In this document: in pieces, positions 29,776-56,481 of the stretch
How positions within the stretch are numbered: the first letter of the stretch is position 1
Layout: each line of letters starts with the position of its first letter
From: Bradyrhizobium sp. NP1
GTDB taxonomy: Bacteria > Pseudomonadota > Alphaproteobacteria > Rhizobiales > Xanthobacteraceae
Reading direction: 5' to 3'
Assembly (NCBI RefSeq): GCF_030378205.1
Contig: NZ_CP127385.1
Coordinates: 3,822,001 to 3,886,000, forward strand
Length of the DNA: 64,000 nucleotides
Translations under genes and position numbers: made by a program
The notes under the pieces: model-generated
Seen by the model: the letters and a program-made list of their open reading frames with translations, nothing else
Databases searched by the model: none
What the model was told of the DNA's origin: nothing

Positions 29776-30879
29776 ATGCGTACCGACCTGTTTGATTTCG
29801 AACTGCCGCCTGACAGCATCGCGCTGCGTCCGGCGAATCCGCGCGACTCGGCACGGATGCTGGTGGTGCTGCCCGATGGTGTGCTGCGCGACGCAGCCGT
29901 GTCGGACCTACCGCGATGGCTCGAGGCGGGCGACCAGCTCGTCGTGAACGACACCAAGGTCATCCCCGCCCAGCTCACGGGCCGCCGCATCGGACGCGAG
30001 ACCGAGCCGAAGATCGAGGCGACGCTGATCAAGCGGCTGGACGGCTCGCGCTGGCAGGCGCTGGTGAAGCCGGCGAAGAAGCTCGTCGCCGGCGACCACA
30101 TCCGCTTCGGCAACGAGGGCAGGGTGTGCCTGCTCGGCCATCTCGACGCCGAGGTGGAGGCGAAGGGCGGCGAAGGCGAGGTGACGCTGTCGTTCTCGTT
30201 CCACGGGCCGGCGCTCGACCAGGCGATCGCCGATCTCGGCAACCCGCCGCTGCCGCCCTATATCGCGTCAAAGCGCGCGCCCGACGATCAGGATGCCAGC
30301 GACTACCAGACCATGTTCGCCGAGAATGAAGGCGCGGTCGCAGCTCCCACCGCAGGCCTCCACTTCACGCCGGCCCTGGAAGCGAAGCTGCGCGGCCACG
30401 GCGTCACCCTGCACCGGCTGACGCTGCATGTCGGGGCCGGGACTTTTCTCCCCGTGAAGACGGATGATACGCGCGAGCATCGGATGCACGCCGAATGGGG
30501 CTGCATCACCCATGAGACCGCGGCCGCGCTGAATGCGGCGCGCGCAAGCGGCGGCCGCATCGTCGCGGTCGGCACCACCTCGCTGCGGCTACTGGAAAGC
30601 GCAGCCGCCGACGACGGCGCGATCCAGCCGTTCCAGGGCGAGACCTCGATCTTCATCACGCCGGGCTATCGTTTTCGCGCCGTGGACGTGCTGTTGACCA
30701 ATTTCCATTTGCCGCGCTCGACGCTGTTCATGCTGGTCTCGGCGTTCTCAGGCCTCGACACCATGAAGGCCGCCTATGTGCATGCGATCAAGGGAGGCTA
30801 TCGCTTCTATTCCTACGGCGATGCCTGCCTGCTGTTTCGCGGGCCGACGCGGGATCGCACGCTCCACGAACGTTTGTAG
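29776..30879 (+). CDS. queA: tRNA preQ1(34) S-adenosylmethionine ribosyltransferase-isomerase
   Basis: A 367-residue enzyme that transfers and rearranges the ribosyl part of SAM onto preQ1 in tRNA, giving epoxyqueuosine. Signature segments: [88 protein letters not shown] and [17 protein letters not shown]. The start at 29776 gives the conserved N terminus. tgt, the preceding step of the same pathway, lies 1.4 kb downstream with asd inserted on the opposite strand. Confidence 0.96.
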
Positions 30880-30994
30880 GGTGGGCAAAGCGGAAGCCTG
30901 CCCACCATCGCCGCCATGGGTCCCGCTGGTGAGCATGGAGCATGCGCTTTTGCCCATCCTGGAGGTTGCTACAGGCCACCTGGGCGCGGACGGG

Positions 30995-32020
30995 TCACGC
31001 CATCACGCGCTCCGGCAGCAATTCGGCGATCTGGATCGCGTTCAGCGCCGCGCCCTTCAGCAGCTGGTCGGCGGCGACGAACATTGCGACCGAGTGCCCG
31101 CTGGCGTCGCTGAGGTCCCGCCTGATGCGGCCCACCAGCACGTCGTCCTGGCCGGAGGCGTCGAGCGGCATCGGGAAATAGTTCCTGGTGCGGTCGTCGA
31201 TTATCTTCACGCCGGGCGCGGCGGAGAGGATCTCGCGGACCTCGTGCTCGCTGATCGGCCGCTCGCATTCGAAGGTGATCGCCTCGCAATGGGCGCGCAG
31301 CACGGGCACGCGGACGCAGGTCACGCCGACCGCAATCTCTTCGTCCTCGAAGATCTTGCGGGTCTCCTTGATGACCTTCGTCTCCTCGTCGTTGTAGCCG
31401 GTCTCGGGGTCGATCGCCGTGTTGTGGCTGAACAGGTTGAAGGCGTAGGGATGCGGCATCACCCTCGGCGAAAACGCCTCGCCGGCGAGGTTGGCGCGGG
31501 TCGATTCCACGAGCTCCTCCATCGCCGCCGCACCCGCGCCGCTCGCCGCCTGGTAGGTCGCGATGATGACGCGCTTGATGCGGTTTACCCGATGGATCGG
31601 CCACAGCGGCACCAGCGCCGTGATCGCCGCGCAATTCGGGTTGGCGATGATGCCCTTGTGGTCGCGGATACGGCGCGCATTCACCTCGGGGATCACCAGC
31701 GGCACATTCGGGTCCATCCGGAACGCCGAGGAATTGTCGACCACGACGGCGCCGGCCTTGATTGCGTGGGCTGCGAACTTCCGCGAGATGCCGCCGCCGG
31801 CGGAGAACAGCGCGATGTCGACGCCCTCGAAGGAGCGCTCGGTGAGCTCCTCGATTGTGACCTCCTGACCGCGGAAATGAAGCGTCTTGCCTGCGGAGCG
31901 GGCGCTTGCAAGTGCCTTCAGCCTGCGAACGGGAAAGCGGCGGCGGTCCATGGTCGCGATGAATTCGGCGCCGACAGCGCCGGTCACGCCGGCAATGGCC
32001 ACAACGGGTTCGTTCTTCAC
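30995..32020 (-). CDS. asd: aspartate-semialdehyde dehydrogenase
   Basis: A 341-residue NADPH-dependent dehydrogenase converting aspartyl phosphate to aspartate semialdehyde, the branch point to lysine/diaminopimelate, threonine and methionine. N-terminal VAIAGVTGAVGAEFI is the dinucleotide loop, NPNCAAI holds the catalytic cysteine, and RVPVLRAHCEAI and GRIRRDLSD are family motifs. The start is GTG at 32020 with AAGGA 8 bases before. A Thr/Lys-rich leader ORF and terminator lie directly upstream (32065-32194), so expression is probably set by transcription attenuation. Convergent with queA; divergent from tgt. Confidence 0.96.
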   Translation of the reverse strand: MKNEPVVAIAGVTGAVGAEFIATMDRRRFPVRRLKALASARSAGKTLHFRGQEVTIEELTERSFEGVDIALFSAGGGISRKFAAHAIKAGAVVVDNSSAFRMDPNVPLVIPEVNARRIRDHKGIIANPNCAAITALVPLWPIHRVNRIKRVIIATYQAASGAGAAAMEELVESTRANLAGEAFSPRVMPHPYAFNLFSHNTAIDPETGYNDEETKVIKETRKIFEDEEIAVGVTCVRVPVLRAHCEAITFECERPISEHEVREILSAAPGVKIIDDRTRNYFPMPLDASGQDDVLVGRIRRDLSDASGHSVAMFVAADQLLKGAALNAIQIAELLPERVMA

Positions 32021-32064
32021 TTTGGTCTGTCCTTCGTTTGGGCGTGATCCGTGCCGCAGGCAAT

Positions 32065-32158
32065 AAAAAAGCCCCGGACCTGATCAGGCGGGGCTTCGGT
32101 TCAAGATAATGCGATCGTTCGACTACGCGCGCACGACTCCCGAAGCCCGCAAGGGCTT
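32065..32158 (-). promoter_or_regulatory. transcription attenuator of asd
   Basis: Minus-strand order of segments: 1 = AAGCCC (32158-32153), 2 = GCGGGCTTCGG (32150-32140), 3 = CCGAAGCCCCG (32099-32089), 4 = CGGGGCTT (32076-32069), then TTTTTT (32070-32065). Segments 1:2 form a small hairpin, 2:3 an antiterminator with only one bulged base, and 3:4 an intrinsic terminator. The terminator ends 44 nt before the asd start codon. This is the classic layout of ribosome-controlled attenuation. Confidence 0.75.
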
Positions 32159-32194
32159 TCCGGTTTTCGTCGTGGTTTTCGCGGTCGTCTTCAT
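32123..32194 (-). CDS. asd leader peptide, Thr/Lys rich
   Basis: A 23-codon frame beginning MKTTAKTTTKTGK: six threonines and four lysines in the first 13 residues, just where a ribosome must stall to cover segment 1 of the attenuator, whose AAGCCC is formed by codons 13-14. Lysine and threonine are end products of the aspartate pathway. The codon run stops right at the hairpin and the TAG falls 23 nt before segment 3. No strong Shine-Dalgarno is visible before the ATG at 32194, the main weakness. Confidence 0.65.
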   Translation of the reverse strand: MKTTAKTTTKTGKPLRASGVVRA

Positions 32195-32299
32195 GGCGGC
32201 GGACCATAGGGGCGGCGTCGCGCGCCGTCAATCGATTTTGGCAGGATTGTGGGCGCCATCGTGGTTGAATCCGGCCGCATGGGTAGGCGATAAGCCCCC

Positions 32300-33433
32300 A
32301 TGACCCTGCCCAACCATTTCGAGCTGCTCGCGACGTCAGGCGCGGCGCGCACCGGCCGCCTCACCACGCCTCATGGCGTGGTGCGCACGCCCGCCTTCAT
32401 GCCGGTCGGCACGGCCGGCGCCATGAAGGGCATGCACTGGCGCGAGGTGCGCGATGCCGGCGCCGACATCGTGCTCGGCAACACCTATCACCTGATGCTG
32501 CGGCCGGGAGCCGAGCGGATCGCCAGGCTCGGGGGCCTGCAGGCCTTTACCGGGTGGAACGGGCCGATGCTGACCGATTCCGGCGGCTTCCAGGTGATGT
32601 CGCTCGCCGAGCTGCGCAAGCTCAGCGAGAACGCCGTGACGTTCCGCTCGCATATCGACGGCACCAAGATCGAGCTGTCGCCGGAGCGCGCCGTCGAGGT
32701 GCAGCGGCTGCTCGGCTCCGACATCGCCATGCAGCTCGACGAATGCGTGCGGCTGCCGGCGGAGCGAAGCGACATCGAGCGGGCGATGCAGCTCTCGCTG
32801 CGCTGGGGCGAGCGCTCGCGGCGCGCCTTCGAGAGCGCGCCGGAAGGATACATGCTGTTCGGCATCGTGCAGGGCGGCGACGTGGTCGAGCTCAGGCGCA
32901 GAAGCGCGCAGGCGCTGATCGAGATCGGCTTCCATGGCTACGCGATCGGCGGGCTCGCGGTCGGCGAACCGCAGGCGGTGATGCTCGCCATGGTGGCGGA
33001 GGTGGCGCCGATCCTGCCGAGCGACCGGCCGCGCTACCTGATGGGCGTCGGCACGCCGGAGGATCTGCTGGAGGCGATCGCGCGCGGCATCGACATGTTC
33101 GATTGCGTGCTGCCGACCCGCAACGGCCGCCATGGCGTCGCCTTCACGCGGTTCGGGCCGATCAACCTGCGCAACGCCCGCCACATCGACGATCCGCGCC
33201 CGCTCGATGAGGAAAGCCCATGGCCTTCGGCGCGCCTCTATTCGCGGGCCTATCTGAACCATCTGGTGCGATCAGGCGAGACGCTCGGCGCGATGCTGCT
33301 CTCGGAGATCAACATCGCCTATTATCAGCACCTGATGCGAGAGGCGCGCACTGCAATCGCGCAGGGCAGCTTCGCGGATTTCCACGCGCAGACGCGTGAA
33401 GGCTGGGCGCGCGGCGACATCGCTGCGCTTTGA
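32300..33433 (+). CDS. tgt: queuine tRNA-ribosyltransferase, zinc site altered
   Basis: A 377-residue TIM-barrel enzyme that exchanges guanine 34 for preQ1 in tRNA-Asp, -Asn, -His and -Tyr. Catalytic parts are intact: [12 protein letters not shown] (base-binding Asp), [17 protein letters not shown] and the nucleophile in [15 protein letters not shown]. The C-terminal zinc motif is not: where E. coli reads ECDCYTC before RNYSRAYLHHL, this protein reads ESPWPSA before [11 protein letters not shown]. All three cysteines are replaced (Ser, Trp, Ala), while the histidine stays. The start at 32300 fits the family. It works upstream of queA in queuosine synthesis. Confidence 0.94.
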
Positions 33434-56405: not shown

Positions 56406-56481
56406 TGGTGAGCGCGCTGGGGATCGAACCCAGGACCCCGTGATTAAAAGTCACGTGCTCTACCGTCTGAGCTACGCGCTC
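56406..56481 (-). tRNA. tRNA-Lys (TTT)
   Basis: 76 nt including encoded CCA. Acceptor GAGCGCG pairs perfectly with CGCGCTC, the D-arm is GCTC-AGACGGTA-GAGC, the anticodon stem CGTGA/TCACG encloses the loop CTTTTAA with anticodon TTT, and the T-arm is CTGGG-TTCGATC-CCCAG. It reads AAA/AAG lysine codons. Confidence 0.96.

Follow-up and report, generated by a model that had tools for sequence, protein, structure and literature searches.

A conserved threonine/lysine-codon leader as a putative transcription attenuator of a second asd gene in Bradyrhizobium

Comparative sequence analysis points with good confidence to ribosome-mediated transcription attenuation of asd2, a second gene for aspartate-semialdehyde dehydrogenase (ASADH) in Bradyrhizobium sp. 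NP1, by the short leader that precedes it. The elements of this reading are a promoter-like site, a Thr/Lys-rich open reading frame (ORF) and mutually exclusive helices, all conserved among relatives, together with co-variation in helices 1:2 and 2:3. The asd reaction feeds lysine, diaminopimelate (for the cell wall), threonine and methionine, and a conserved Thr/Lys attenuator on asd2 would suggest a rule, open to experimental test, by which Bradyrhizobium adapts this branch point to the supply of amino acids.

The stretch of DNA analysed here (the window, 64 000 nt) carries on its minus strand a leader ORF of 23 codons (MKTTAKTTTKTGKPLRASGVVRA, 32123..32194), which opens with ATG at 32194, closes with TAG at 32123 and includes six Thr and four Lys codons. 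Direct reading and the ORF listing both place it where the first-pass annotation, which had proposed a Thr/Lys leader peptide and attenuator upstream of asd, said it would be. Most of these codons fall in one putative control run, ACG ACC GCG AAA ACC ACG ACG AAA ACC, read directly at 32162..32188 (minus strand). A promoter scan revealed a sigma-70-like site on the same strand (TTGACG-17-TATGGT, 32203..32231) 8 nt ahead of the leader ATG, one site being found upstream of the leader against a mean of 0.1 in shuffled sequences. No Shine-Dalgarno (SD) site precedes the leader ORF, which lies directly behind the promoter. With an assumed combined Thr and Lys frequency of 9%, the binomial probability of at least 10 such residues in 22 codons is about 8e-6, uncorrected for the choice among ORFs; we consider the leader's recurrence at 97/98 orthologous loci the stronger point against chance.

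The gene downstream, asd2 (30995..32020, minus strand, GTG start at 32020), encodes a 341-residue product that scores 404.5 bits against TIGR01296 (cut-off 324.2). It aligns with solved ASADH chains in the PDB and retains the NPNC motif and the R...AHCEA region, which we take to hold the catalytic residues. The host genome (7.71 Mb, one contig) has a paralogous asd at G000:C1:363670 that is 45% identical to asd2. When 248 genomes of the family were surveyed (233 with any match), 17/17 genomes of the same genus, the host among them, had an ortholog of at least 80% identity. G075, from a different genus, was the sole further genome to have one, and the best of the remaining matches reached 49% identity. 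On these comparisons asd2 is a second copy, found within the family only in the window's genus and G075. The best 80 of 360 relative-bearing stretches from a scan of named genomes comprised 79 titled Bradyrhizobium or Bradyrhizobiaceae and one titled Frankia sp. RB7; the latter is a Bradyrhizobium-type asd2 locus that resembles the others, perhaps from a mislabelled or contaminated genome. The best 120 of 8000 candidates from a protein search were all at least 84% identical to asd2, and these 120 did not reveal its origin. As to neighbourhood, the fetched stretches, reaching up to 3 kb from asd2, contained queA at all 81 loci examined and tgt at 11 of them. In the window (29776-33433), asd2 lies on the opposite strand and separates queA from tgt, and at 70/81 other asd2 loci tgt falls outside the fetched stretch altogether. 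At 7/8 loci from other families of the order queA and tgt stand together, and asd neither separates nor flanks them.

We assembled 98 asd2 loci, namely the window, the 80 best of the 360 relatives and 17 from family genomes, giving 88 unique leaders. A leader of 22–24 codons with 4–9 Thr and 1–4 Lys was present at 97 of the 98, so the conserved Thr/Lys codons that the first-pass annotation had suggested seeking in relatives were indeed recovered. Only L089 departs from this: behind its Thr/Lys run a single base is deleted, which takes the leader frame into asd2, and either an error in sequencing or a leader-Asd fusion that occurs in nature could account for it. Among the 93 leaders of 23 residues, lysine occupies position 6 in 93 and position 10 in 90, while threonine occupies positions 5, 8 and 11 in 89, 91 and 92, respectively. 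Two Lys positions are thus conserved as well as the best Thr positions, and this with a mean content per leader of 7.0 Thr (up to 9) and 2.3 Lys. Lysine is spelled AAA in 204/222 leader codons (92%) vs 25/1787 in the asd2 genes (1.4%), and AAA makes up 48/347 Lys codons (14%) across 22 ORFs of the window that look like genes. At the C-terminus the leaders share a G.VRA motif, whose codons overlap segment 2 and the antiterminator base (see below).

The region ahead of the leader is equally constant. TTGAC stands at the -35 position of 97/97 ortholog leaders with a 17-nt spacer, and the distance from the -10 element to the leader ATG is 7–10 nt in all 97 (8 nt in 88). An SD-like motif precedes the leader in none of these 97, and precedes asd2 itself at 98/98 loci. 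Because the promoter-like site lies only 7–10 nt from the ATG and no SD-like motif intervenes, the data suggest that the leader mRNA is leaderless or nearly so. Excerpts of a transcription start site map of Bradyrhizobium japonicum list 320 gene starts located 0–10 nt upstream of the start codon (PMC4842269).

Four segments of the minus strand can be read as mutually exclusive 1:2, 2:3 and 3:4 helices. Segment 1 (AAGCCC, 32153..32158; direct reading and fold) is the 5' arm of a putative protector hairpin, and segment 2 (GCGGGCTTCGG, 32140..32150; direct reading) can partner either 1 or 3. Segment 3 (CCGAAGCCCCG, 32089..32099; direct reading and ortholog leaders) would serve as both the 3' arm of the antiterminator and the 5' arm of the terminator, while segment 4 (CGGGGC, 32076-32071) is followed by six T at 32070-32065, so that reading and fold agree on an intrinsic terminator hairpin with U-run at 32065..32096, also on the minus strand. 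These segments and the T run all occur at the positions and on the strand first claimed for them, and the 44-nt gap claimed between terminator end and asd start matches the GTG at 32020. The predicted fold of 32194-32055 (-52.1 kcal/mol, z -2.0) contains both the terminator and the 1:2 hairpin. A simple terminator scan of the window did not list the site at 32065..32096, because it permits loops of 3–8 nt only.

Among the 88 unique ortholog leaders the terminator core GCCCCG/CGGGGC is identical throughout. Predicted minimum free energy folds of the naked leader include the terminator in 82/88, and those with a ribosome placed at the stop codon include it in 88/88. Masking nt 1–44, which mimics a ribosome stalled near codons 9–11, gave the antiterminator in 64/88; in 24/88 the terminator remained favoured despite the mask. 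The window's own leader is one of these 24 (-36.0 kcal/mol vs -32.3 kcal/mol for the antiterminator), and for this sequence the model would require the antiterminator to prevail by forming earlier. The freed segment adopted the antiterminator in all 88 leaders, yet 78% of shuffled leader segments did so too, and we therefore dropped antiterminator formation alone as strong evidence.

Compensatory pairing was sought by a partner-swap test, which compares the duplex energies of real and swapped partners; this was preferred because gaps around the leader stop defeat RNAalifold, which returned 17 pairs and almost no covariation from the 88-sequence alignment. With shared ancestry left in, 24 representatives showed co-variation for both 1:2 (z -2.58, P 0.0027) and 2:3 (z -3.30, P 0.0010). 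The scores were -3.01 and -3.40, respectively, after removal of two misregistered representatives (n = 22), and -2.49 and -3.47 when the sequence from the other genus was also dropped. For the pairings 1:3, 1:4 and 2:4, own partners were no better than swapped ones in the same 24 representatives, and the antiterminator base (s2b:s3b) fell short of significance (P 0.05 and 0.12). Helix 3:4 hardly varies among the representatives, and so no co-variation can be read from it. The attenuator reading, for which the first-pass annotation had looked to conservation of the codon run and alternative helices in relatives and to compensatory base pairs, is supported by the run kept at 97/98 loci, the invariant terminator core (88/88) and the co-varying 1:2 and 2:3 helices.

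From these features we infer a course of translation, stalling, amino acid signal, termination and induction as follows. RNA polymerase would start at or just ahead of the leader ATG, and ribosomes would load onto the leaderless or nearly leaderless 5' end to translate the Thr/Lys run. With charged tRNA-Thr, and probably also tRNA-Lys, in plentiful supply, the ribosome would reach the stop codon (32125-32123) and cover the 3' part of segment 2, such that 3:4 pairs and transcription ends at about 32065. A ribosome stalled in the run would instead cover segment 1, leaving segment 2 free to pair with 3; this pairing would block the terminator, so that asd2 could be transcribed, with translation starting from the SD of the gene itself. 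If the leader were not translated at all, 1:2 would form and the terminator would win.

Thr/Lys leaders are also found ahead of canonical asd genes. We parsed the upstream regions of 98 canonical copies (10 + 30 + 60 fetched, 2 unparsed; a non-random sample), and a short ORF with at least 6 Thr+Lys in 14 residues, a cut-off chosen after two peaks were visible, occurred in 53/98 vs 1/98 on the reverse strand. The 53 are spread over 22 other families of the order (L116-L201). In the window's own family none of 15 canonical copies reaches this cut-off, including the canonical asd of Bradyrhizobium in four genomes. Outside the order, 2/23 parsed asd copies have a Thr/Lys leader (L205 and L209); several of the others seem to lie close behind the end of another gene, presumably leuB-like. 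Many canonical leaders of other families mix Thr with Lys. Between leader stop and canonical asd, five consecutive T occur in 1/53 and four or more in 8/53. An Rfam scan of 20 canonical-asd leader loci returned a tRNA only.

Behind the leader stop the canonical leaders carry a different set of segments: A (CCTCTC-like), just before which the Thr/Lys run usually ends, then B (CTCTCCCC-like), C (adjacent, GGGGAG-like) and D (GGGGAGAG-like), the last near the asd start. Segments were placed by consensus matching, some visibly misplaced, and with this placement the partner-swap test on 44 representatives of 50 gave z -6.9 for B:C, -4.7 for B:D and -4.3 for A:C. Taking one sequence per family in 22 families, the median z values were -5.2, -4.3 and -3.4, respectively. 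The pairs A:B (-1.4) and C:D (-0.7) were no better than swapped partners among the 44. Direct A:D pairing, also considered, was set aside on the same test (z -0.4). The A-C-B-D network permits B:C on the one hand and A:C plus B:D on the other. Stalling of a ribosome on the Thr/Lys run could then hide A and let B pair with C, which would free D near the start; otherwise A:C would form and B would capture D, giving a pseudoknot in the off state. Because U-runs are rare, the segments coevolve and D lies near the asd start, we read this device as putative translational attenuation. Predicted SD accessibility gave no confirmation, with a mean of 0.57 for full vs 0.62 for masked leaders (up in 17/50, down in 7/50). 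A peptide signature shared with canonical asd in 22 other families, coupled to another RNA output, would permit a natural comparison of transcriptional with translational attenuation.

A covariance model built from the asd2 leader was run on the host genome and on 119 family genomes. In the host genome it recovered asd2 itself and five weak matches (E 0.009 to 0.45). One of them, L231 (G000:C1:6837905-6838037, E 0.0088), lies ahead of a dapA-like gene and is alone in sharing the asd2-leader layout by eye, with a score near that of L232 (E 0.0125). The dapA-like product scores 198.5 against TIGR00674, slightly under the cut-off of 206.15, and the gene is present in 57/60 genomes of the genus. 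All 30 loci read (L255-L284) have a leader with adjacent Lys-Lys, for example MITSSCAALSSKKGPHPGTRDRRAR, at a similar distance to the gene, and the pair is spelled AAA-AAA in the 28 leaders checked for this. A GGGG-plus-U-run pattern follows in 29/30, the other (L258) having a variant hairpin and four T. We know of no lysine-sensing leader peptide, and the Lys-Lys leader of the dapA-like gene would be an unusual example of one.

Twenty-three of the 119 family genomes gave a match to the model at E ≤0.01: five genomes of the genus and G075 through the asd2 leader, and 17 others through weak matches only. Six weak matches inside the genus and six outside it (L241-L245, L247) were read; two of the latter precede dapA-like genes and the others resemble gene ends with terminators. 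L241 and L242, from two genomes of another genus, are leaders before dapA-like genes without the Lys-Lys pair. A third leader-like locus was seen in three genomes of the genus (L309, G024:C1:6600152; L310, G086:C21:289688; L311, G064:C61:60161), with ORFs such as MIKSRKLDRRHVTRSCRAVGGVVR that have an asd2-like tail and a terminator and no Thr/Lys run, the frame of L311 being different; in 2/3 a small ORF of ~130 residues stands behind the terminator.

Taking the three sets of leaders together, we regard it as evenly poised whether Thr/Lys leaders have controlled the aspartate-semialdehyde branch point since early in the history of the order, through two output devices. These would be a terminator-less switch before canonical asd in many families and, in Bradyrhizobium, an intrinsic-terminator attenuator on the lineage-specific asd2, partnered by a Lys-codon attenuator on the dapA-like gene.

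Three other explanations of the asd2 leader were weighed. The same attenuator might respond to threonine only, and the role of the AAA-spelled Lys codons would then be just to keep the surroundings of segment 1 unstructured. Thr outnumbers Lys about 3:1 in the leaders, with up to 9 Thr, and A-rich codons would be expected to lower local structure, so this version deserves some weight. We nevertheless find it doubtful, given that Lys is kept at position 6 in 93/93 and position 10 in 90/93 of the 23-residue leaders, that AAA reaches 92% there vs 1.4% in asd2 genes and 14% in window ORFs, that many canonical asd leaders of other families mix Thr and Lys, and that a Lys-Lys leader stands before the dapA-like gene.

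Another proposal is that the ORF is a gene for a small protein, or part of a dual-function, trans-acting attenuator sRNA that has a terminator of its own, and that cis control of asd2 is secondary. The conserved G.VRA tail and the similar-tailed leaders without a Thr/Lys run elsewhere in the genus would fit this, and peTrpL/rnTrpL of Sinorhizobium, as described in excerpts of PMC7298713, offers a precedent. The tail, however, coincides with segment 2 and the antiterminator base, codon composition follows the pathway of the product and the helix arms co-vary, all of which makes this account improbable as a replacement for cis attenuation, with which a trans-acting role would in any case be compatible. 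Least credible, with a very slim chance of being right, is a constitutive terminator behind a fortuitous ORF, with asd2 expressed by readthrough. Masking the run leaves the terminator as the preferred fold in the window's sequence, which would fit such a model, but the Thr/Lys ORF is kept at 97/98 loci, helices 1:2 and 2:3 co-vary, and canonical asd has its leaders in 53/98 copies vs 1/98 on the reverse strand. Ribosome-mediated attenuation of asd2, in response to a shortage of threonine and probably lysine, remains in our view the most probable reading.

The first-pass annotation had further stated that it knew of no description of such control of asd in rhizobia. For Bradyrhizobium our literature search of open-licence papers agrees with this: it found none on an asd attenuator there, nor any on an asd switch that lacks a terminator or on dapA with a Lys leader; excerpts of PMC5082802 and PMC1273637 contain nothing on asd. 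For rhizobia at large the statement needs qualification in view of SEP5 of Sinorhizobium. According to excerpts of PMC10117765, this short ORF, which has six Thr codons and three Lys codons, lies in the 5'-UTR of an 'aspartate dehydrogenase' gene, its translation was detected and it was proposed as a possible leader peptide; these excerpts give no RNA structure for it. SEP5 resembles the asd2 leader as a Thr/Lys short ORF, although its gene goes by the name of aspartate dehydrogenase rather than asd, and, unlike the Bradyrhizobium leader, it is said in the same excerpts to be conserved only in Sinorhizobium.

Among models of known RNA elements, the Rfam Thr operon leader had no match at gathering in the window, where a tRNA gene (56409-56481) is the sole Rfam match at that threshold. 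Metabolite riboswitch models, such as those for lysine and SAM, and T-box models gave none at gathering window-wide and none up to E 10 in 31990-32290, a region in which just five sub-threshold matches, to unrelated families, appeared at that limit. The thr operon attenuator of enterobacteria (thrL) combines a Thr-rich leader peptide with protector/antiterminator/terminator logic in the aspartate-family pathway. The asd2 leader resembles thrL (Rfam Thr_leader) in its Thr-rich peptide, in that logic and in the pathway family; it differs in pairing Thr with Lys rather than Ile, in its target (asd rather than thrABC) and in its apparently leaderless or nearly leaderless start. In the last respect it would be closer to rhizobial trpL (rnTrpL/peTrpL), which excerpts of PMC10117765 and PMC7298713 describe in Sinorhizobium meliloti as a leaderless ORF at the transcript 5' end, likewise with a terminator ahead of a biosynthetic gene, whereas trpL has Trp codons, precedes trpE and plays an additional role in trans, none being known for the asd2 leader. 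The mechanism we propose for asd2, leader-peptide attenuation, is a classic one, of which this leader would be a further instance lying outside the Rfam Thr-leader model.
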